64,000 bases of DNA, from assembly GCF_032116555.1 (NCBI RefSeq), contig NZ_CP134949.1:372001-436000 (forward strand), read 5' to 3'. Both the position numbers and the translations under genes were made by a program. This stretch comes from Halobaculum sp. XH14 (GTDB lineage: Archaea; Halobacteriota; Halobacteria; Halobacteriales; Haloferacaceae). The notes under the pieces were generated by a model. It worked only from the letters and a program-made list of their open reading frames with translations, was not told where the DNA came from and made no database searches. Positions 7,774 to 19,078 of this stretch are shown here, one piece after another. Each line of letters opens with the position of its first letter. Position 1 is the first letter of the stretch.

Positions 7774-8736
7774 TCACTCGAACCGCTCCTTGATCCACCC
7801 GCCGATCCCCTCCGGGACGAAGATCAGCAGGACGATGAGGATCACGCCGTACACGATGAACCGGACCTCGCTGAGGAAGCGAAGCACCTCCGGAACGAAC
7901 ACGACGAACATCCCGCCGATGATGGCCCCGCCGACGGTGGTGATCCCACCTGCGACGGCGGCGAGGATGATCTCGATCGTCGCGTCGAGGTTGAACAACG
8001 TCGGGGTGATGTAGCCGGTGATGGGGGCGTAGATGCCGCCGGCGAGCCCGCAGATCGCCCCCGACAGCGAGAACGCGAGCAGCCGGTACCGCTGGGTGTC
8101 GATGCCGACCGACTCGGCGACGATGGTCTCCTCGTGGAGCGCCAGGAGCGCCCAGCCGTGTTCGGACTCGACCAGTCGCCTGATGACGAGGTAGGAGCCG
8201 ACGAACGCCACCAGCGCGACGTAGAAGTACAGCACGTCGATGGAGACGACCGCCGTCAGCGCGTCCGGGAAGTAGAGGTCAGGACTCGGCATCCCGATGC
8301 TTCCGCCGAAGAACCCGGGGAAGAGGTCGAGCGCGAGGACGAACATCTCGTTGAACGCGAGCGTGATGATCCCCAGATAGATGCCGGTCGCGCGCGTCGC
8401 CGGCTTCCCGAGCGCGTAGGCGACGGCGGTCGTGACGACGATCGCTGCCGGGATCGCGAGCCACGTCGGGACGCCGGCGTTGGCGACTTTGATGAACGTG
8501 TATGCTCCGACGCCGAAGAATGCCCCCTGCGAGAGGATGAGCTGACCGGAGTACCCGATCGGGGCAATCGCCGCGAACGCCAGGATCGCGTAGATGAACG
8601 AGAGCGTAAACAGGTACAGCCTCGACCCGCTGAATACGAACGGGAGCGCGAACAGCGCGACGGCTGCTACGCCAACCAGCTTGCGCCAGTGGTTCTCGAG
8701 GAACGCCTTCGGCCCGCTCACCGTCTCGCTCGCCAT
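7774..8736 (-). CDS. livM: Branched-chain amino acid type ABC permease LivM
   Basis: This 320-residue polytopic membrane protein has the LivM signature: IAPIGYSGQLILSQGAFFGV in the first half, and RLVESEHGWALLALHEETIVAESVGID followed by GLAGGIYAP in the conserved cytoplasmic loop. It forms the permease heterodimer with the LivH protein. Its ATG overlaps the livH stop codon (ATGA), so the two are translationally coupled. LIV/HAAT importers carry amino acids, amides, urea and aromatic acids. Here the cargo is probably the island's substrate. Confidence 0.93.
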   Translation of the reverse strand: MASETVSGPKAFLENHWRKLVGVAAVALFALPFVFSGSRLYLFTLSFIYAILAFAAIAPIGYSGQLILSQGAFFGVGAYTFIKVANAGVPTWLAIPAAIVVTTAVAYALGKPATRATGIYLGIITLAFNEMFVLALDLFPGFFGGSIGMPSPDLYFPDALTAVVSIDVLYFYVALVAFVGSYLVIRRLVESEHGWALLALHEETIVAESVGIDTQRYRLLAFSLSGAICGLAGGIYAPITGYITPTLFNLDATIEIILAAVAGGITTVGGAIIGGMFVVFVPEVLRFLSEVRFIVYGVILIVLLIFVPEGIGGWIKERFE

Positions 8737-9602
8737 CAGGAATCACCTCGCAGGCCCGTGGGACGGGCGATGAGGATGAGGAACAGAATGAGGAAGACGA
8801 CGAAGATGCGGTACCGGCTGCCGACCACGACCGACGAGATGCTGTCGATGACGCCGATGAGGAGGCTGGCGGCGATGGTCCCGCCGAAGCTGCCGATGCC
8901 GCCGACCACGACGATGACGAACGCGAACGCCGTGAGTTCGACGCCGATGGACGGCGAGAGCGGGAAGAGGATACCGTAGAGCACCCCCGTCATCCCCGTG
9001 ATGAACGATCCGATCCCGAACGTGATCGGGTAGACGCGGTCCTCGTCGACGCCGATGATCTTGGCACCTTCCTTGTCGTTCGCGAGCGCGCGGATCGCGA
9101 GCCCGAAGTACGTGTACCGGGTGAACAGGTACAGCGCCGCGAGCATCAACACCGCGACGACCGAGACGAGGACCTGGTTGTACGTGATCGTCCCGCCGAA
9201 CAGCTGGAAACTCCCGAGGTTCGGGAAGGAGACCCGGAACAACGACGCGCCGAAGTAGTAGCGCAACAGCTCCTCGAAGGCGATGACGATGCCGAACGAG
9301 GCGAAGAACGAGAGCAGGAAGAACTCGTCGTCGTCGTACAGCGGAGCCATGATGAGTCGCTCGACGGCGACGCCGGCGACGAACGTCAACACGAGCGCGA
9401 TGGCGATGGCCGGGACGAGACCGATGCCAAAGCCCATCAGCGCGATGACGCCGAAGCCGCCGAAGGCGGCGAACTCCCCCTGCGCGAAGTTGGGGATGTC
9501 GAGGACGCCGAAGATGAGCGTCAGCCCGACTGCCGTCAGCGCGAGCAGGAACCCGAAGATGAGCCCTGTGGCGATCGCGTACGGGATCTGTTCGAGCACC
9601 AT
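8736..9602 (-). CDS. livH: Branched-chain amino acid type ABC permease LivH
   Basis: This 288-residue membrane protein carries the LivH motifs GLTLIFGVLDIPNFAQGEFA near the N-terminus and AIRALANDKEGAKIIGVDEDR in the coupling loop. The ATG at 9602 (MVLEQIPYAIA) is chosen because it abuts the stop of livF and begins the first membrane helix. The order on this strand is livK, livG, livF, livH, livM with 1-14 nt gaps or overlaps, a classical HAAT operon. Confidence 0.93.
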   Translation of the reverse strand: MVLEQIPYAIATGLIFGFLLALTAVGLTLIFGVLDIPNFAQGEFAAFGGFGVIALMGFGIGLVPAIAIALVLTFVAGVAVERLIMAPLYDDDEFFLLSFFASFGIVIAFEELLRYYFGASLFRVSFPNLGSFQLFGGTITYNQVLVSVVAVLMLAALYLFTRYTYFGLAIRALANDKEGAKIIGVDEDRVYPITFGIGSFITGMTGVLYGILFPLSPSIGVELTAFAFVIVVVGGIGSFGGTIAASLLIGVIDSISSVVVGSRYRIFVVFLILFLILIARPTGLRGDS

Positions 9603-9603
9603 C

Positions 9604-10311
9604 TCAGGCCCCCCCTCCGAGGTATCGCTCGACGATCCGGTCGTCGTCCAGGAACTCGGTCGCGTCACCGGTCATCGTGATCCGGCCGTTCTCGAGGAGA
9701 GCACCGCGATCCGCGACCTCCAGGGCCTCGTTCACGTTCTGTTCGACCATCACGATGGTCACGCCATCCTCGTTGATGCGTTCGATGCGCTCGAACAGTT
9801 CGGTGACGAGATTCGGCGCGAGGCCGACGGACGGCTCGTCCAGCAAGAGCAGGTCCGGTTCGGACATCAGCCCCCGGCCGATGGTGAGCATCTGTGCCTC
9901 GCCGCCGCTGAGCGTATCCGCCCGCTGTCCCTTGCGCTCTTCGAGCCGAGGGAACGTCGCATAGACGCGGTCGAGGAGCTCCTGCTTGTCGGCGTCCCGG
10001 TTGAGGTACTGTCCGAGGATGAGGTTCTCTCGCACGCTCATGTCTCGGAAGAGGTGTCGTCCCTCGGGGACCAGCGACATTCCCATCTCGACGCGGTCGG
10101 GCGTCGAGACGGTCGTGATGTCCCGATCTCGAAACGTGACGCTGCCACTCGTCGGACTGATGATTCCCATGAGCGTTCGCATGATGGTCGTTTTGCCGGC
10201 ACCGTTCGGGCCGATGATGGAGAGCAGTTCCCCCTCGCTCACGTCGAGCGAGACGTCGTAGAGAACTTCCATGTCGCCGTATCCGGCGTCGACGGCTGAA
10301 GTGTGGAGCAT
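9604..10311 (-). CDS. livF: ABC transporter ATPase LivF
   Basis: This 235-residue nucleotide-binding subunit has Walker A GPNGAGKTTIMR, signature LSGGEAQMLTIGRGL and Walker B LLLLDEPSVGL. LivF-specific features include the short domain without the LivG insertion. It pairs with LivG to energise the LivHM permease on the cytoplasmic face. Only one base separates it from livG on one side and livH on the other. Confidence 0.94.
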   Translation of the reverse strand: MLHTSAVDAGYGDMEVLYDVSLDVSEGELLSIIGPNGAGKTTIMRTLMGIISPTSGSVTFRDRDITTVSTPDRVEMGMSLVPEGRHLFRDMSVRENLILGQYLNRDADKQELLDRVYATFPRLEERKGQRADTLSGGEAQMLTIGRGLMSEPDLLLLDEPSVGLAPNLVTELFERIERINEDGVTIVMVEQNVNEALEVADRGALLENGRITMTGDATEFLDDDRIVERYLGGGA

Positions 10312-10312
10312 G

Positions 10313-11032
10313 CTAGGCGATGTACGCCTCCTGCACCCTGCTGTCGTTCATAATCTTGTCGGGCTTGCCCGACGCGAGGAAGCGTCCGTTGTCGATGACG
10401 ACGATCTTGTCACAGATCCGCCTGATGACGGAGAGGTCGTGTTCGATGACGAGGAACTCTATCCCGTGATCCTCGTGTAGCTGGACGATGTGCGAGATGA
10501 GCTCGTCCTTCTCGCTCGGATTCAACCCCGCCATGATCTCGTCGAGGAGCACCAGCGACGGGCCGGTCAAGAGCGCTCGCGCGAGGTCGAGGTACTTCTG
10601 TTCGACGAACTGGAGGTTCTCGGGGGAGCGATCGCGAGTCTCCCGGAGATCGAACAGGTCCAGGAGATCCTCCACCGAAAACGCGGTCTCGGCGTTCCGG
10701 TCCGCGGGGCCGAAGTGGCGGGCGATTCTGAGGTTCTCCTCCACGCTCAACTCCGTGAACGGGCGGGGGGACTGGAACGTCCGCGAGATCCCCCGCCGAC
10801 AGATCTCGTGAGGTTTCTCGCCCGTGACCTCCTCCCCCTTGAAGTAGACCGACCCGGTCGTCGGCTTGAGGACGCCGGTGGTGAGGTTGAAGAACGTTGT
10901 CTTCCCCGCGCCGTTCGCACCGATCAGCCCCGTGATCACGCCCTCTTCCATCTGGAGATCGAGTTCGTCGAGCGCCACGATGCCGCCGAAATGTTTCGAA
11001 AGGTTTTGTGCTTCTAGCAACATTTCTTCCAT
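10313..11032 (-). CDS. livG: ABC transporter ATPase LivG
   Basis: This 239-residue ATPase has Walker A GANGAGKTTFFN and Walker B SLVLLDEIMAGL. The signature helix is degenerate: NLQFVEQKYLDLARAL stands where LSYGQQ or LSGGQ is usual, so its ATP-sandwich site may be asymmetric with that of LivF. A second in-frame ATG at 11023 (MLLEAQNLSKHFGG) is the more usual family start. Transcription comes from the substrate-binding protein gene 14 bp upstream. Confidence 0.92.
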   Translation of the reverse strand: MEEMLLEAQNLSKHFGGIVALDELDLQMEEGVITGLIGANGAGKTTFFNLTTGVLKPTTGSVYFKGEEVTGEKPHEICRRGISRTFQSPRPFTELSVEENLRIARHFGPADRNAETAFSVEDLLDLFDLRETRDRSPENLQFVEQKYLDLARALLTGPSLVLLDEIMAGLNPSEKDELISHIVQLHEDHGIEFLVIEHDLSVIRRICDKIVVIDNGRFLASGKPDKIMNDSRVQEAYIA

Positions 11033-11046
11033 GGCGGGTCGGCGAT

Positions 11047-12216
11047 CTACGATTCCCTCGGGGGGAGCTCGGATGTCTTGTACTCCACCGCGGCGACCGG
11101 ACTGTCGTCCTGGATCTCCCAGCGGAGCAGCGAGGAGCGGAACGTCTGGTTGTCCCCGCTCTCGTTGAAGTTGATGTCGAAACCCGAGATCGACGGCAGT
11201 TCGATCTCGCCCAGCGTCGTGTTCGTGCTCTGGGGGGTCTGCTCCTCGGCCTGGACGACCGCCTGCATCGCCGTGTAGGCGGCGTCGTAGCCGAGGAAGT
11301 CGATCGTCTCCGCCCGCTCGTCGAACCGCTCTTGCTTCTTCGAGATGAAGTCGGCGGCGGCGTCGGTTCGGCGGTCGACGCCGTGATAGCCGACGCCCTC
11401 CACGGTGTTCCCCATCGCGCTGAGGAACGCGTTCGACCCGTACAGGTTACCGCCGATGTGGTACTTGCCGTCGATGAGTCCGGCGTCCTTCGCCTGTTCG
11501 ATGAGGACGACGCCGTTGTTTCCGGGGTAGATGCCCAGGAACGCGTCGGTCTCGTCGGGGTCGATGTTCGAGAGGGTCGGCCTGAAGTTGTCAGTCCCCA
11601 GCGGCACGAACGTGGAGGAGATCAACTCCACCCCGAAGTCCGCCATGTGCATCTCGAAGTACTCCTTGAACTTCCGGCCGTAGCTGTAGTCGGCGAAGAT
11701 CGCTGAAACGTTGCTAGCGCCGACGTTCTCGTAGTACTCGAGCGTGGCCAGCGCGAGCTGTTCGCCGTTGCCGTACGTCCGGTACATGTAGTCGGTCCCG
11801 TCCTGGGTCACCTCCGGGTTCGTGATGACGGGGCCGACCATCGGCACTTCCTCCTGCATCAGGAGGTCGCGCAGGCCGACGCCGACGTCGCTGGAAACGG
11901 GTCCAGTGAGGGCGATGCAGCCGTTCTCGATCTGCTCTTGCACCACGCTCCTGGCGGTCTCGACGCTCCCTTCGGTGTCGGCAAACACCATCTCGAACTC
12001 GTCGTCGACCTCGCTGTTCACGTCGTCGAGCGCGATTTCCGCGCCCTGACGTAGCCCCTCACCGAAGGTCGAGAGGGAACCGGTCAGCGACGACACGAAC
12101 CCGATCTTTCGCTCGTACTCGGTGCCGCCGCCGCCGCCGACGCAGCCGGCGAGTCCCGTCAGTGCCGCCGCCGATGCACCTGTCCGTTTCAGAAACGCCC
12201 GTCTGTGTGTTACCAT
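11047..12216 (-). CDS. HAAT-type substrate-binding lipoprotein (LivK/UrtA-like)
   Basis: This 389-residue type 1 periplasmic-binding-fold protein begins with a Tat-like signal RRAFLKRTGASAAALTGL followed by the lipobox LAGC (Cys about residue 25) and a glycine linker. It would be exported folded and lipid-anchored outside the cell, as is usual in haloarchaea. It captures the substrate for LivHMGF and is the first gene of the importer operon. The ATG at 12216 is preferred to a TTG at 12219. Ligand specificity is unknown; the context suggests an amide or N-heterocyclic acid. Confidence 0.9.
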   Translation of the reverse strand: MVTHRRAFLKRTGASAAALTGLAGCVGGGGGTEYERKIGFVSSLTGSLSTFGEGLRQGAEIALDDVNSEVDDEFEMVFADTEGSVETARSVVQEQIENGCIALTGPVSSDVGVGLRDLLMQEEVPMVGPVITNPEVTQDGTDYMYRTYGNGEQLALATLEYYENVGASNVSAIFADYSYGRKFKEYFEMHMADFGVELISSTFVPLGTDNFRPTLSNIDPDETDAFLGIYPGNNGVVLIEQAKDAGLIDGKYHIGGNLYGSNAFLSAMGNTVEGVGYHGVDRRTDAAADFISKKQERFDERAETIDFLGYDAAYTAMQAVVQAEEQTPQSTNTTLGEIELPSISGFDINFNESGDNQTFRSSLLRWEIQDDSPVAAVEYKTSELPPRES

Positions 12217-12240
12217 CAACCATTGATGAATAGGGTGTGC

Positions 12241-12576: not shown

Positions 12577-13302
12577 TCACAGGTCGAACAGGCTGCCAGC
12601 CTGGACCGACTCCGAGCCCACCCCTGCCGCACGGAGGGCGTCCCACAGGGTGGCCTGGTGTGCGGAGACGACCGGCTTGTCCAGGTCGGCCTCCAGCGTC
12701 TCGACGACCGGCATCCCGTGGTACTCCATGCCGCTGATGAACACCCCGTCCGCCTCGTCAGTGTCGATGGAGCGGACGCGTCGGTACACGCTTCGGGGGG
12801 TCGAGGTGCCGTAGTCCGCCCCGGACGCGAAGTCCTCGCCGTGAACGTCGAGGACGGAGTAGCCGTGTTGCTCGAGGTACGCGACGAGCAGGTCGCTGAG
12901 TTCGTCGATGTACGGCGTGGCGATCACGAGCGACTCCAGGTCCAGCGCCTCGAAGGCCCGCCGGGCCGCCGTCGCGGTCGTCACCGCCGGGACGCCGGCG
13001 CGCTCCTCGATCCGTTCGGCGAGTTCGACGTCGTACCCCTTCCCCCGGTAGAAGCTCCCGGCGGTAACCCCGTACGCGACGACGTCCGGGTCGACCTTCG
13101 CCACGGCGTCGGTCGCCCTGTCCACGTCGCGGTTCATCCCTTCGAGCGCGGCGGCGTCCACCGGGTCATCGAGCGGGAGGCGGGCCGCGTGCACGGTCAC
13201 GCCCTCGGGCGCGTGCCGGTTGAACTCGACCTCGCTCACGGTGTTGATGTCCGGGGTCAACAGGCCGATCCGCGCCCGCCAGCCGTAGTGCTTGCCGGTC
13301 AT
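12577..13302 (-). CDS. Maleate isomerase / Asp-Glu racemase superfamily protein lacking the usual cysteines
   Basis: This 241-residue protein has the maleate cis-trans isomerase/arylmalonate decarboxylase fold, seen in the N-terminal RIGLLTPDINTVSEVEF and the C-terminal DKPVVSAHQATLWDAL. The two catalytic cysteines of maleate isomerase fall at V79 (GVTAGSF) and G191 (FISGMEYHG), so neither is present. A conventional two-cysteine mechanism is therefore impossible. A decarboxylase, lyase or binding role is possible. The ATG at 13302 matches the family N-terminus. It is divergent from an MFS gene, with about 160 bp between them. Confidence 0.8.
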   Translation of the reverse strand: MTGKHYGWRARIGLLTPDINTVSEVEFNRHAPEGVTVHAARLPLDDPVDAAALEGMNRDVDRATDAVAKVDPDVVAYGVTAGSFYRGKGYDVELAERIEERAGVPAVTTATAARRAFEALDLESLVIATPYIDELSDLLVAYLEQHGYSVLDVHGEDFASGADYGTSTPRSVYRRVRSIDTDEADGVFISGMEYHGMPVVETLEADLDKPVVSAHQATLWDALRAAGVGSESVQAGSLFDL

Positions 13303-14690: not shown

Positions 14691-15425
14691 TCAGCCGAGC
14701 CGACGTTCCCACGCCGGGGCCGCGAGCGATTCCCCGCTCACGCCCTCAGGTCCCTGTCCGGCCAGCAGCACCGCCGCCTCGTCCATGACGTCCGGCTGCA
14801 GGATCGACTCCCGCTCCTCGTCGGGCAGGTGGTCCCAGAACGCCGTGTTCACCCGGCCGCCGGGACCGAGGCTGTTGACGTTGATCCCCGCCTCGTCGTA
14901 CTCGGCCGCCATCGTCCGCGTCAGGGCCTCCACGCCGGCCTTCGAGGCGGCGTACGGGCCGAACCTGGGCGCCGGTTTCTCCGCCAGCCCCGAGGAGACG
15001 TTGACGACGTTCCCGGAGCCCCCGTCGAGCATGTGTGGCAGCGTCGCCTTCGAGAACCGGAACACGCCGGTCAGGTTCGTGTCGAGCACCAGCTCCCACT
15101 CGTCCTCGGTCACGTCCCCGAGGAGCTTGCCGTCCTTCCCGAGGCTCAACAGGCCCACCGCGGCGTTGTTCACCAGGGTGTCGATCCCGCCGAACGCGTC
15201 GACCGTCCGCTCGACGGCGCGGGACACCGAGTCGGCGTCCCGCACGTCCGCCGGCGCGACCAGCGTCTCCCCGTCGGCGTCCGCGGCCACCGCGGTCAGT
15301 TCGTCCCCGTCACGCGCGACCAGCGCCACGCTCGCGCCCTCCGCCGACAGTCGCAGCGCCATCGACCGACCGAGCCCGCGGCTCGCGCCCGTGACCACGA
15401 TCCGTTCGCCGTTCAGGTTCGCCAT
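14691..15425 (-). CDS. SDR family oxidoreductase
   Basis: This 244-residue classical short-chain dehydrogenase has the cofactor motif TGASRGLG (residues 13-20), NNAAV, and the active-site Ser with YAASK. The acidic residue after the second strand is not obvious (VALVARDG), so NADP(H) may be used. It would oxidise or reduce a hydroxy or keto intermediate. The ATG at 15425 is preferred to a GTG two codons upstream. It is convergent with the MFS gene. Confidence 0.9.
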   Translation of the reverse strand: MANLNGERIVVTGASRGLGRSMALRLSAEGASVALVARDGDELTAVAADADGETLVAPADVRDADSVSRAVERTVDAFGGIDTLVNNAAVGLLSLGKDGKLLGDVTEDEWELVLDTNLTGVFRFSKATLPHMLDGGSGNVVNVSSGLAEKPAPRFGPYAASKAGVEALTRTMAAEYDEAGINVNSLGPGGRVNTAFWDHLPDEERESILQPDVMDEAAVLLAGQGPEGVSGESLAAPAWERRLG

Positions 15426-15530
15426 GGACACTGATGACCGAACCGTCCCATAAGGGTTTCCTCGGGGAGAGCCCCCGATCCGGCGGCCGATTCAGCCCAC
15501 GACCCGGCCGTCAACGATCGTCGGTCGTCG

Positions 15531-15935
15531 TTAGACGTCGCCGGTGTACGTCCGGGTGGCCGTGAGCCGGTCCATCTTCCACTCGCCCCCGTGTTTGCCG
15601 TACTCGACGTCGTGTGTGCCCATCGCCCACTCGCCATCCCCGTGGTCCGGGTCGTCGGCCTTCAGGAGCACGTACGACCAGCGGGCGGTCGCCTCGTCGC
15701 CCTCGACCGTGATGATGGGGTTCGTGGCGAGGTGCTGATACGCGGCCGGCCTGTTCGCCGCGCTGGATTCGAGGAACTCCCGGATCTCCTCGCGACCCTC
15801 GAACGACCGGTCCCCGAGGGCGAACGTGCCGTTCGGAGCGAACAGGTTCGCCAACGATTCGGGCTCGCCGTCGTCGACCGCCCGGATGTACTCGTAGTGG
15901 ATCCGCTCGAGCTGGCTTCTATCGCGTTCGGACAT
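15531..15935 (-). CDS. SnoaL-like / NTF2-fold protein
   Basis: This 134-residue protein has the SnoaL-like pattern: an N-terminal helix ending IRAVDDGEPESLANLFAPNGTF, then GREEIREFL, and beta strands AYQHLATNPIITVEG and ATARWSYVLLK. Such proteins are small subunits of ring-hydroxylating dioxygenases, isomerases or dehydratases. It lies 49 bp downstream of a flavin reductase gene and is probably co-transcribed with it. A dehydratase or isomerase role is plausible but unproven. Confidence 0.8.
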   Translation of the reverse strand: MSERDRSQLERIHYEYIRAVDDGEPESLANLFAPNGTFALGDRSFEGREEIREFLESSAANRPAAYQHLATNPIITVEGDEATARWSYVLLKADDPDHGDGEWAMGTHDVEYGKHGGEWKMDRLTATRTYTGDV

Positions 15936-15984
15936 GCCGGGTAGTCGTGAGCGGCCGGCTCACAAGAATCATTCGTCGCGGGGC

Positions 15985-16467
15985 TTACTCGATGGTGCCG
16001 TACTGGCCCCTGAAGAACGTGAGCGGGGCCGCGTCGGGCTCCTGGACGCCCATCTCCTCGACGTGGCCGAGATAGATGGTGTGGTCGCCCCCGTCGTAGC
16101 TCTCCGTGAGGGTACAGTCCATGTAACAGATCGCCTCCTCGACGATCGGCGATCCGGTCGCCTCCCGACGGAACGTGACGTCCTCCCAGGGGTCGTCCAT
16201 CTCCTTGTGTTCGCCCGCGAAGCGGTTCGAGAGCCACTCCTGCTCCGCGGAGAGGACGTTCACCGCGTAGCGCTCGCTCTCGGCGATCAGGTCGTGCGAC
16301 GTCGTTCCCTTGTCAGCGTTGAACAGGACGAGCGGGGGATCGAGCGACACCGAGGCGAACGAGTTCACGGTCATCGCGTGATCGTCCCCGTCGACCGTCG
16401 TCGTCACGACCGTCACGCCCGTCGCGAAGTTTCCCATCACCTGTCGGAACTGATCTTGCTCGACCAT
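15985..16467 (-). CDS. Flavin reductase family protein
   Basis: This 160-residue flavin reductase-like domain has the family hallmark FATGVTVVTTTVDG at residues 11-24, SFASVSLDPPLVLF for FMN binding, and SERYAVNVLSAEQ. In two-component monooxygenases this protein supplies reduced FMN. Two luciferase-type monooxygenases encoded at 19205 and 24843 are the obvious clients. It is probably first in a unit with the SnoaL-like gene. It could alternatively be a pyridoxamine-oxidase-like protein, but the motif order fits the reductase. Confidence 0.9.
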   Translation of the reverse strand: MVEQDQFRQVMGNFATGVTVVTTTVDGDDHAMTVNSFASVSLDPPLVLFNADKGTTSHDLIAESERYAVNVLSAEQEWLSNRFAGEHKEMDDPWEDVTFRREATGSPIVEEAICYMDCTLTESYDGGDHTIYLGHVEEMGVQEPDAAPLTFFRGQYGTIE

Positions 16468-16611
16468 GAGCAGTTGCTATGCTCGCTACTACTAAACTAC
16501 TGTGCCCGGCGGCCGACGATCCTCCTGCCGTGCCGCCGGCGACCGGCGGCCGACGATCCGGCGTTGGCACTCCGGACGCGAAGCGGGAGGGAGAAACGTC
16601 GAACCGCCCGG

Positions 16612-17430
16612 TCAGGACTCGAGGAACTCCCTGGTCCGCGAGAGGAACTCCTCGGGGTGTTCGATGTGTGCGCTGTGGTGAGTCTCCTCGAGCAGGACGA
16701 GTTCCGAGCCCGGGATCATCTCGTGGAGTTCGGTCATCGCCTCGGGCGGCTGCAGGGGGTCATCCTGCCCGCCGAAGATGAGCGTCGGCACGTCGACCCG
16801 CTCGTACTCGTGGCTGCGCCTGAACTCCCGGTCCTCCTCGAACGGCGTGTTGAACCGGATGGCGGCGGTGCTCTGCCAGTGGCCGGGGATCCTGCTCGCC
16901 GCCCGTTTCCGGTCGACGTACGCCTGGTCGTACCACTCCTCGTAGAACAGGAGCGAGAGGATCTCGCGGACGTCCTCCTCGGTGGCCTCGAAGTTGTGGA
17001 GGATCTCGCCGAACCCCTGCGGGGCCCCGCCGCCGCCGCTCACGAGGACGATCTTGTTCATGTTCCACTCCGGGTCGTCCTCGCACGCGAGGCTGGCGAT
17101 GTAGCCGGCGCCCATCGAGTGGCCGATGAAGTGCGCCTCGTCGACGTACAGCGCGTCGAGGAACGCCCCGACGTGGCGCACCCGTCGGTCGAACTGGTCC
17201 CCGAAGTCGAACACTTTCTCGGAGCGGCCGTACCCGAGCAGGTCGGGCGCGAGGACGTGATAGTCCTCCGCCAGGTCGTCGATGACTGGCTCCCAACTGA
17301 GCTCCGCGGTCGCGCCGAACTCGCCCGAGTGAATCAGGACGAGCGTCTCGTCGTTGCCCTCGCCCGCTTCGAGGTAGTGTGTTTTCAAGTCGTTGACGTC
17401 GAGGTACCGACTCGTGTAGGATTGACTCAT
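16612..17430 (-). CDS. Alpha/beta hydrolase
   Basis: This 272-residue alpha/beta-hydrolase-fold protein has an oxyanion region LIHSGEFGA, nucleophile S105 in GHSMG, an acidic residue in GGQDDPLQPP, and the catalytic His in EETHHSAHIEHP. Relatives include meta-cleavage product hydrolases and N-formylmaleamate deformylase (NicD). The atypical HSGEFG in place of HG is shared with several ring-cleavage hydrolases. The ATG at 17430 gives the usual family length. It diverges from the amidohydrolase-2 gene and probably acts on a ring-opened intermediate. Confidence 0.86.
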   Translation of the reverse strand: MSQSYTSRYLDVNDLKTHYLEAGEGNDETLVLIHSGEFGATAELSWEPVIDDLAEDYHVLAPDLLGYGRSEKVFDFGDQFDRRVRHVGAFLDALYVDEAHFIGHSMGAGYIASLACEDDPEWNMNKIVLVSGGGGAPQGFGEILHNFEATEEDVREILSLLFYEEWYDQAYVDRKRAASRIPGHWQSTAAIRFNTPFEEDREFRRSHEYERVDVPTLIFGGQDDPLQPPEAMTELHEMIPGSELVLLEETHHSAHIEHPEEFLSRTREFLES

Positions 17431-17585
17431 GCTACCACCATTCCCGGTAGGTTCTGGGAAAGCGACCGACATAAGTGTTCCCGACCGTCGGACGTGGTGG
17501 CCCTCCGCCGTCGACCGTCGGGTCGGGGGCGGCGGACGCACGGGGCACCGAAATCGTCATGGTCGTCCGTGCGGACGGGTCACAC

Positions 17586-18713
17586 ATGTCGGTAGAGGAG
17601 TCGGGCCCGGAGGCAGAGGTCCCGCCCGAGGCGTTCGAGACGCGCATCGTCGACGTCGACTTCCACATGAACCCCGCCGAGGAGGTCCTCCTCGAGTACG
17701 TGGACGACGGGACGGTGCGGGAGAAGCTGACGACGGAGTTCGGGATGACCCCCCGGAAGGGCAAGTGGGACGCCGCCTACGCGATCAAGGGGGGCAACGA
17801 GGGGCTGTTCACGCAGGGGCGCGCACAGACCCCGGCGGACGTCCGCGAGGCGGCGCGGACGTTCGCGATCGACGAGCCGGTCGTCAACGCCGGGATCAAC
17901 AACCTGCCGACCCAGCACCACCCCGTGCTGAAGAACGCGGTCGCGGGGGCGGCCAACGACTGGCTCCTCGACGCCGTCGTGCCCGAGGACCTCCACTGTC
18001 TCATGATGCTCCCCCAGTGGGACCCCGAGTTCGCGGTCGAGGAGATCGAACGCGTCGGCGACGAGCGGGGGATCGTGGGCGCGTACGGCTGGTTCGGTCC
18101 GTTCCGGCTGTTCGGGACCACCGACTTCGATCCCGTGTTCGAGGCGCTGGAGGCCAACGACCTCCCGCTGTTCCTCCACGGGTCGCTCTCGTTCTGGCCC
18201 CAGAACACCCCCGTCGGCGACGGCACGTACACGTGGACCGAGATACTGGGGTTCGACTGGCCCGTCCACGCCCAGATGACGACGGTCAACATGATCATGA
18301 GCGGGGTGTTCGACCGGTTCCCGGACGTCCAGGTCGTCATCCAGGAGGGGGGCCACTGGTGGCTCCCGTTCCTCCGCTATCGGATGGACGAGTTCTACGA
18401 GATGCACCCCGAGGACGTCGCGATCACGCCGCGGAAGTTCGAGGCCGGGGAGCGGTACCTGGACCGCTCCCCGAGCGAGTACCTTCGGGATAACGTCAAC
18501 GTCTGCACCCAGCCGATGGCGCCGCCCGACCGGTCCGGGGAGCTGCGGAACCTGCTCGAACTGTCGATGGCGGCGGACACGTTCCTCTATTCGAGCGACT
18601 GGCCCCACCAGACGCTCGACCCGGCGACGTGGGCGTTCGACAACCCGGCGATCGACGACGAACTGCGCGACGCGATCCTGCACGGGAACGCCGAGCGGCT
18701 CCTCGGGATCTGA
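17586..18713 (+). CDS. Amidohydrolase-2 family (decarboxylase-like) protein
   Basis: This 375-residue member of the ACMSD/resorcylate decarboxylase branch of the amidohydrolases has metal ligands suggested by IVDVDFHMNP (about residues 22-31), LFLHGSL, and EGGHWW, with a late acidic residue in YSSDWPH. Family members decarboxylate aromatic acids or hydrolyse C-C or amide bonds. The ATG at 17586 is preferred to upstream in-frame starts. The stop codon lies 2 nt before the ATG of a Rieske ferredoxin gene, so the pair is translationally linked. The substrate is unknown. Confidence 0.85.
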   Translation: MSVEESGPEAEVPPEAFETRIVDVDFHMNPAEEVLLEYVDDGTVREKLTTEFGMTPRKGKWDAAYAIKGGNEGLFTQGRAQTPADVREAARTFAIDEPVVNAGINNLPTQHHPVLKNAVAGAANDWLLDAVVPEDLHCLMMLPQWDPEFAVEEIERVGDERGIVGAYGWFGPFRLFGTTDFDPVFEALEANDLPLFLHGSLSFWPQNTPVGDGTYTWTEILGFDWPVHAQMTTVNMIMSGVFDRFPDVQVVIQEGGHWWLPFLRYRMDEFYEMHPEDVAITPRKFEAGERYLDRSPSEYLRDNVNVCTQPMAPPDRSGELRNLLELSMAADTFLYSSDWPHQTLDPATWAFDNPAIDDELRDAILHGNAERLLGI

Positions 18714-18715
18714 CG

Positions 18716-19078
18716 ATGTCGTCGGAAACCTCCCACCGGGTCGCGGCGGCCGACGAGATCGACCCCGGCGAGGGGATGGGTGTCGAGGTCGACGGCATCG
18801 AGATCGCCCTGTTCAACGTCGAGGGCGAGTTCCACGCCATCAGCAACCGGTGTCCACACCAGCGCGCCCCGCTCTGCAAGGTCGGCGAGAAGAAGATCAA
18901 CGGTGAGCTGTGCTGGAGTGACACCCGCGGCGGGGTCGACGCCGAGACGCCGGCCATCTCCTGTCCGTGGCACCTCTGGGAGATCGAACTCGAGACGGGC
19001 GAACATCCCGTGTCCGGGTCGAAGATCGGGTGCTTCGACGTCGTGGTCGAGGAGGGCGACGTGTTCGTCGAGCTCTAG
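18716..19078 (+). CDS. Rieske [2Fe-2S] ferredoxin
   Basis: This 120-residue protein is a single Rieske domain. Its cluster ligands are C46 and H48 (CPH) and C83 and H86 (CPWH). There is no membrane segment and no catalytic oxygenase domain, so it is a soluble electron carrier of the NdmA/biphenyl-dioxygenase ferredoxin type. It follows the amidohydrolase-2 gene by 2 nt and precedes a flavin-dependent monooxygenase gene, and it may carry electrons for an oxygenase encoded elsewhere. An insertion of about 25 residues between the two ligand pairs is longer than usual. Confidence 0.92.
   Translation: MSSETSHRVAAADEIDPGEGMGVEVDGIEIALFNVEGEFHAISNRCPHQRAPLCKVGEKKINGELCWSDTRGGVDAETPAISCPWHLWEIELETGEHPVSGSKIGCFDVVVEEGDVFVEL

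Follow-up and report, generated by a model that had tools for sequence, protein, structure and literature searches.

Maleate isomerases and arylmalonate decarboxylase (AMDase) have a fold in common; what can a protein so folded still do once both catalytic cysteines of the family have been replaced? The question is raised by a gene of Halobaculum sp. XH14 in the 64,000-nucleotide stretch analysed here, which we call the window. The first-pass annotation had described its product as maleate-isomerase-like, with V79 and G191 instead of the two catalytic cysteines. This replacement was borne out by the translation and by alignments with relatives. The gene and the three codons of interest are as follows.

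12577..13302, minus strand: cysteine-less Amdase-family protein of 241 residues (PF17645, 4e-28; pLDDT 91.5; Foldseek matches; cysteine-free translation)
13066..13068, minus strand: codon of V79 (GTT), at the first catalytic cysteine position (alignments)
12730..12732, minus strand: codon of G191 (GGC), at the second catalytic cysteine position (alignments)
12661..12663, minus strand: codon of A214 (GCA), at the position of a serine invariant in two-cysteine proteins (comparison with 25 such proteins)

An intact family member without cysteine

The open reading frame starts with ATG and is intact over all 241 residues, and its product is the sole family member in the 3.68-Mb source genome. With 99.0 bits against PF17645 (Amdase), where the Pfam gathering threshold is 25.9, it belongs to the family. 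The AlphaFold2 model, built with 20 aligned sequences, reached a pLDDT of 91.5 and a pTM of 0.90. Foldseek placed it closest to maleate isomerase (TMq 0.88-0.91), 4IX1 and AMDase (TMq 0.88), and a PDB sequence search gave 4IX1, maleate isomerases, 2DGD and AMDase as best matches. The fold, whose surrounding motifs the first-pass annotation had seen as kept, was recovered in a confident model at TM values of about 0.9 to maleate isomerases and AMDase. A cysteine elsewhere in the pocket might have taken over, but none is possible, as the whole translation contains no cysteine at all. A Pfam scan of the protein found no regulatory domain, fused or adjacent.

The two cysteine sites and the pocket

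In the alignments the motifs GVTAGSF, with V79, and FISGMEYHG, with G191, occupy the places where relatives have GCTTGS- and VSCTNY-type motifs. The replacement is no sequencing slip, since a change from Cys to Val takes at least two base changes and a haloarchaeal protein of a second genus, from an independent genome (G207), has the same two residues. The substitutions are also beyond chance, because 102 of the 120 homologues read out, from all sources, have both cysteines and because V16, C79, C191 and S214 are invariant in the 25 two-cysteine proteins. In the cysteine-less pair formed by the XH14 and G207 proteins all four are altered, and identically so. Exclusive to the pair, against the same 25 proteins, are T16, V79, L139, G191, M197 and A214. 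The residues gained in common (V, G, A, M, L, T) include no ionisable group, nucleophile or acid/base.

With trait columns excluded, identity within the pair is 56% in the pocket and 41% in the rest of the protein; two-cysteine pairs of similar divergence gave 60% and 42%, for a pocket list that was chosen by us, with positions taken from alignments and not from distances in the model. The pocket of the pair seems to be still constrained, the excess identity being modest and coming from one pair. According to the alignment, P17, N20, T80 and Y131 are the kept part of the cleft that holds the carboxylate.

Comparison with characterized relatives

Maleate isomerases of Nocardia farcinica (2XED) and Pseudomonas putida (Iso, 4FQ5/4FQ7) share the fold with a TMq of about 0.9. 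Residues N14, C76, Y133, N163 and C194 of the Nocardia enzyme correspond to N20, V79, Y131, G161 and G191. Maleate isomerase reportedly acts via a covalent succinylcysteine, as Fisch et al. in 2010 are said to have described and as the PDB title of 2XED also has it. The catalytic pair C76/C194 has no equivalent here. The residues N14, Y133 and N163, which we take to be substrate-binding after Fisch et al. 2010, are retained in the first two cases (N20, Y131) and replaced in the third (G161). In the tree the protein lies outside the maleate isomerase clade, on a separate, haloarchaeal Amdase branch, a point on which the first-pass description needs correcting.

AMDase of Bordetella bronchiseptica (3DG9 and others) is alike in fold (TMq 0.88), and the stretch SFYRG that follows the first site is identical in both proteins. 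Residues G74, T75, S76, Y126, C188 and G189 correspond to V79, T80, A81, Y131, G191 and M192. We compared the two with the residue criteria of PMC4996985. Instead of the proton donor C188 with G74 opposite (criterion 10 of PMC4996985), the protein has G191 and V79. In the dioxyanion hole (T75, S76, Y126, G189), T80 and Y131 are kept, while A81 and M192 differ. The hydrophobic pocket is likewise altered: V43 is kept as V48, Y48, V156 and M159 are L53, G161 and Y164, and L40 lies outside the aligned fragment. AMDase needs one thiol, C188, which protonates the enediolate, and even the relocated-cysteine mutant G74C/C188S is 20,000-fold slower (PMC12576825). The alignments with both enzymes thus confirmed the replacement at the two cysteine sites, and the pocket turned out to be kept only in part. 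As both thiols are absent, neither AMDase nor maleate isomerase chemistry can operate in this protein, and judged by its defining residues it is neither enzyme.

The ectoine utilisation protein EutA is in the same Pfam family. The NCBIfam equivalogs for EutA and AMDase both match the protein at about 98 bits, far under their own cut-offs (TIGR02990, 98.5 bits against 318; NF052327, 97.6 bits against 225). EutA of a Sinorhizobium, unlike the protein studied here, carries both cysteines, and no ectoine uptake or degradation genes were found among the ten neighbouring proteins scanned.

The best PDB sequence match (6e-21) is 4IX1, an uncharacterised structure of OPAG_01669 from Rhodococcus opacus PD630. 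It likewise lacks both cysteines, having Thr at the first site and Gly at the second. Unlike the haloarchaeal protein, it keeps an SS motif at 213-214 (SSD), and it lies on a distant branch.

Distribution and repeated loss of the cysteines

Relatives of the protein amount to about 100 and occur in 89 of the 391 halobacterial genomes. Only one further halobacterial protein without both cysteines was seen (G207, L031:9945-10682), again with V and G, among sequences of which some were unreadable at one cysteine site, being fragments or misaligned. It is 44% identical to the XH14 protein. Since the wider contig scan used conserved stretches other than GVTAGSF, the haloarchaeal group may exceed two. 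Genome G207 also encodes a two-cysteine paralogue about 50 kb away (L032). There, the cysteine-less gene is flanked by two carbon-nitrogen hydrolases, an aldehyde dehydrogenase and a different kind of ABC transporter; the neighbourhoods of the two haloarchaeal genes differ, and no common operon was found for them.

Other haloarchaeal homologues showed further variation. One (G327, L033:8243-8896, minus strand) has Arg at the first cysteine and keeps the second. Another (L123, G271:C1:164000-164955) gave two separate match pieces with Phe at the first cysteine and looks broken. Two homologues with both cysteines (L066, L071) come immediately after hydantoinase/oxoprolinase A and B genes, and an Nramp-type transporter is encoded upstream.

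The wider scan also returned bacterial proteins in which the motifs GMSAETF/GVSAVSF and VGTNLS place M or V at site 1 and G at site 2. When one of these proteins served as query in a plasmid search, the same pattern came up in Roseomonas, Novosphingobium, Tistrella, Salipiger, Thioclava, Cupriavidus and Leisingera. In the records that carry annotation these proteins are named arylmalonate decarboxylase. The bacterial clade (Novosphingobium, Roseomonas, Tistrella, Thioclava and others; loci L048, L051, L054, L056, L058-L060, L062, L132-L138) has M, V or I at the first site and Gly at the second, and the Ser at 214 is changed here too. It is, however, only about 25-29% identical to the latter, forms a separate well-supported clade and has other neighbours (FAD monooxygenase, DUF4437 cupin, CoA-transferase). 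FAD monooxygenases, DUF4437 cupins and isochorismatase-family proteins recur around its genes, and the Leisingera gene adjoins one for a large adenylation-domain protein.

A single origin of all cysteine-less members was considered and rejected. The haloarchaeal pair grouped with the bacterial clade in the 123-row tree, with weak support (64/92), and in the tree calculated without the trait columns, which had fewer rows, the pair moved into the haloarchaeal branch. This join is probably an artefact of the trait residues and of long branches. We take the tree without trait columns as the fairer test, though long branches keep it short of certain. In it, the pair (83/96) sits inside the haloarchaeal branch (93/93) among two-cysteine proteins, the bacterial clade stands apart (100/100), and 4IX1 groups with a protein retaining the second cysteine. 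With trait columns dropped, the well-supported branches force at least two changes; the tree itself requires three. Both cysteines were probably lost at least twice, with glycine at site 2 each time.

By these alignments the XH14 protein is not alone in lacking both cysteines, a state found in the G207 protein, in a widespread bacterial clade and in 4IX1 as well. The Amdase family contains several cysteine-less lines, one of them already crystallised without an assigned function. Since other branches of the family probably lost the same cysteines separately, the gene looks like a recurrent variant and not a broken gene. A decaying, functionless copy of a two-cysteine enzyme would have lost its catalytic residues too, and the form is rare, occurring in 2 of the 391 halobacterial genomes. 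Against this stand the intact reading frame, the confidently predicted fold and the recurrence of the coordinated pocket residues in a protein of another genus that is 44% identical; we regard decay as unlikely.

Genomic setting

The neighbouring genes in the window are as follows.

7774..11032, minus strand: remaining genes of the LIV-type ABC transporter (open reading frames assigned by sequence; tblastn to LIV-type genes elsewhere)
11047..12219, minus strand: substrate-binding lipoprotein of the branched-chain-type ABC transporter (PF13458, 1e-43; PDB matches are amino-acid binding proteins)
14691..17541, minus strand: SDR, SnoaL-like protein, flavin reductase and alpha/beta hydrolase
17586..19078, plus strand: PF04909 protein related to AibH2/ARO dinuclear oxygenases, then a Rieske ferredoxin (PDB matches; PMC7782822, PMC10811679)
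19205..20347, plus strand: luciferase-like monooxygenase (PF00296, 1e-46)

The cysteine-less gene sits in an accessory catabolic island. The lipoprotein gene is the next one downstream in the same direction, leaving a gap of about 360 bases to the importer (7774-12219). On the opposite side, the genes from the SDR through the monooxygenase lie 1.4-7 kb away. In the PDB, AibH2 (6m1w_B, 5e-33) and the characterised ARO proteins 8SM7, 8SM9 and 8SM6 are the closest matches of the PF04909 protein. An adjoining Rieske gene is a recognition mark of such dinuclear oxygenases (PMC10811679), and in the aib cluster of Rhodococcus a Rieske gene lies beside the oxygenase (PMC7782822). This PF04909 'amidohydrolase' and its small Rieske ferredoxin are kin of the AibH2/AibG system and of other dinuclear (Mn/Fe or Fe2) AROs.

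Orthologues of the PF04909 protein with 61-69% identity were found in more than 20 of the haloarchaea searched, with the Rieske gene alongside in those examined. Among ten fetched haloarchaeal loci that contain a maleate-isomerase-type gene, eight had an ARO/Rieske pair within about 3 kb of it, divergently adjacent in three. These canonical loci (L155-L159, L168, L169, L172) carry the motifs YACLIG and LSSCVQMPSL. The association in eight of ten suggests that maleate or an analogue is the product of the pathway. In the source genome the oxygenase pair is 4.3 kb from the cysteine-less gene and a canonical maleate isomerase is absent, which suggests, at most, that the cysteine-less protein may serve a related acid-processing step.

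It could then be asked whether the protein isomerizes maleate or a close analogue without cysteine, in place of the canonical enzyme of the oxygenase pathway. The absence of a canonical gene here, the proximity of such genes to orthologues of the oxygenase pair elsewhere, and the retention of N20 and Y131 would agree with this. Against it, the protein has lost both cysteines along with the third substrate residue (N163, here G161), the gene is not adjacent to the oxygenase pair, and most of the examined oxygenase loci without a canonical isomerase gene also have no family member nearby. We consider this replacement very unlikely, the least probable of the explanations discussed here.

Other links in the neighbourhood were sought. 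For the substrate-binding protein, a search for orthologues beside other cysteine-less genes turned up a single relative (34%) among 391 genomes, and the genome that carries it has no homologue of the cysteine-less protein. No such homologue was found in the 20-kb surroundings of luciferase-like monooxygenase orthologues in three other haloarchaea, and a literature search found no paper linking maleate isomerase with luciferase-like monooxygenase clusters.

Proposed function

The first-pass annotation had concluded that the chemistry must differ or that the protein may only bind. In broad terms this holds, as the residues make the known cysteine chemistry impossible and a binding role is indeed possible. 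Proton shuttling by the protein and nucleophilic addition are disfavoured, because the thiols became inert residues and no ionisable group was gained in common. For the same reason two main readings are left: stabilisation of an anion or enolate alone, with solvent as the acid, or binding without turnover. Given the catabolic setting and the kept cleft, we place catalysis somewhat ahead of binding.

Our best explanation, to which we would give slightly less than even confidence, is that of a functional island protein whose action on an organic acid involves no cysteine chemistry; catalysis, reaction type and substrate class are all inferred. The two-domain fold of the model and part of the carboxylate cleft (P17, N20, T80, Y131) are retained, while both cysteine faces and the accompanying serine have been rebuilt as V79, G191 and A214. 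The substrate would most likely be an organic acid made or imported through the neighbouring genes. The cysteine-free step might be loss of CO2 or tautomerisation through an enolate held in an anion hole, with water as the proton source.

This explanation agrees with the intact, single-copy reading frame and a confident model nearest to the maleate isomerase and AMDase folds. It also agrees with the coordinated residues T16, V79, G191, M197 and A214 in a second genus, whose genome has a two-cysteine paralogue, and with the retention of N20, T80 and Y131, the counterparts of N14/Y133 in maleate isomerase and of T75/Y126 in AMDase. The catabolic island with its transporter and its oxygenases, the latter of a type found near maleate-isomerase-type genes in eight of ten such loci, points the same way. 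Against it, we know of no cysteine-less member with an established activity. No acid or base is evident, as the pair gained no common ionisable residue. The neighbourhoods of the two haloarchaeal genes differ, and the excess identity of the pocket is modest and depends on our own residue list. A protein of Acidianus hospitalis, automatically annotated as AMDase but lacking some key features, was tested and proved inactive on arylmalonates (PMC4996985).

The same loss of both catalytic residues, with shared changes (V, G, A, M, L, T) that bring no nucleophile or acid/base, would suit a pseudoenzyme whose role is limited to binding a small organic acid, perhaps as an intracellular sensor or as a regulator or partner of the island transporter or oxygenases. 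The kept fold and partly kept anion-binding cleft would serve it as well. The protein has, however, no fused or adjacent regulatory domain that we could find, the source genome holds no active paralogue to regulate, and the setting is catabolic. We see such a binding role as a real possibility, if a rather doubtful one.

In conclusion, the XH14 protein may be the haloarchaeal case of a fold whose active site separately turned cysteine-free at least twice, perhaps three times, with site 1 taken by a hydrophobic residue or Thr and site 2 by Gly, for a new organic-acid reaction; we put this proposal forward tentatively. In automatic annotation such proteins appear as maleate isomerases, Asp/Glu racemases or arylmalonate decarboxylases, whose mechanisms their residues preclude. 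The lines in which both cysteines have repeatedly given way to similar residues form a natural set in which to study what the fold is capable of without a thiol. The set bears on the engineering of AMDase and on the annotation of many catabolic clusters.
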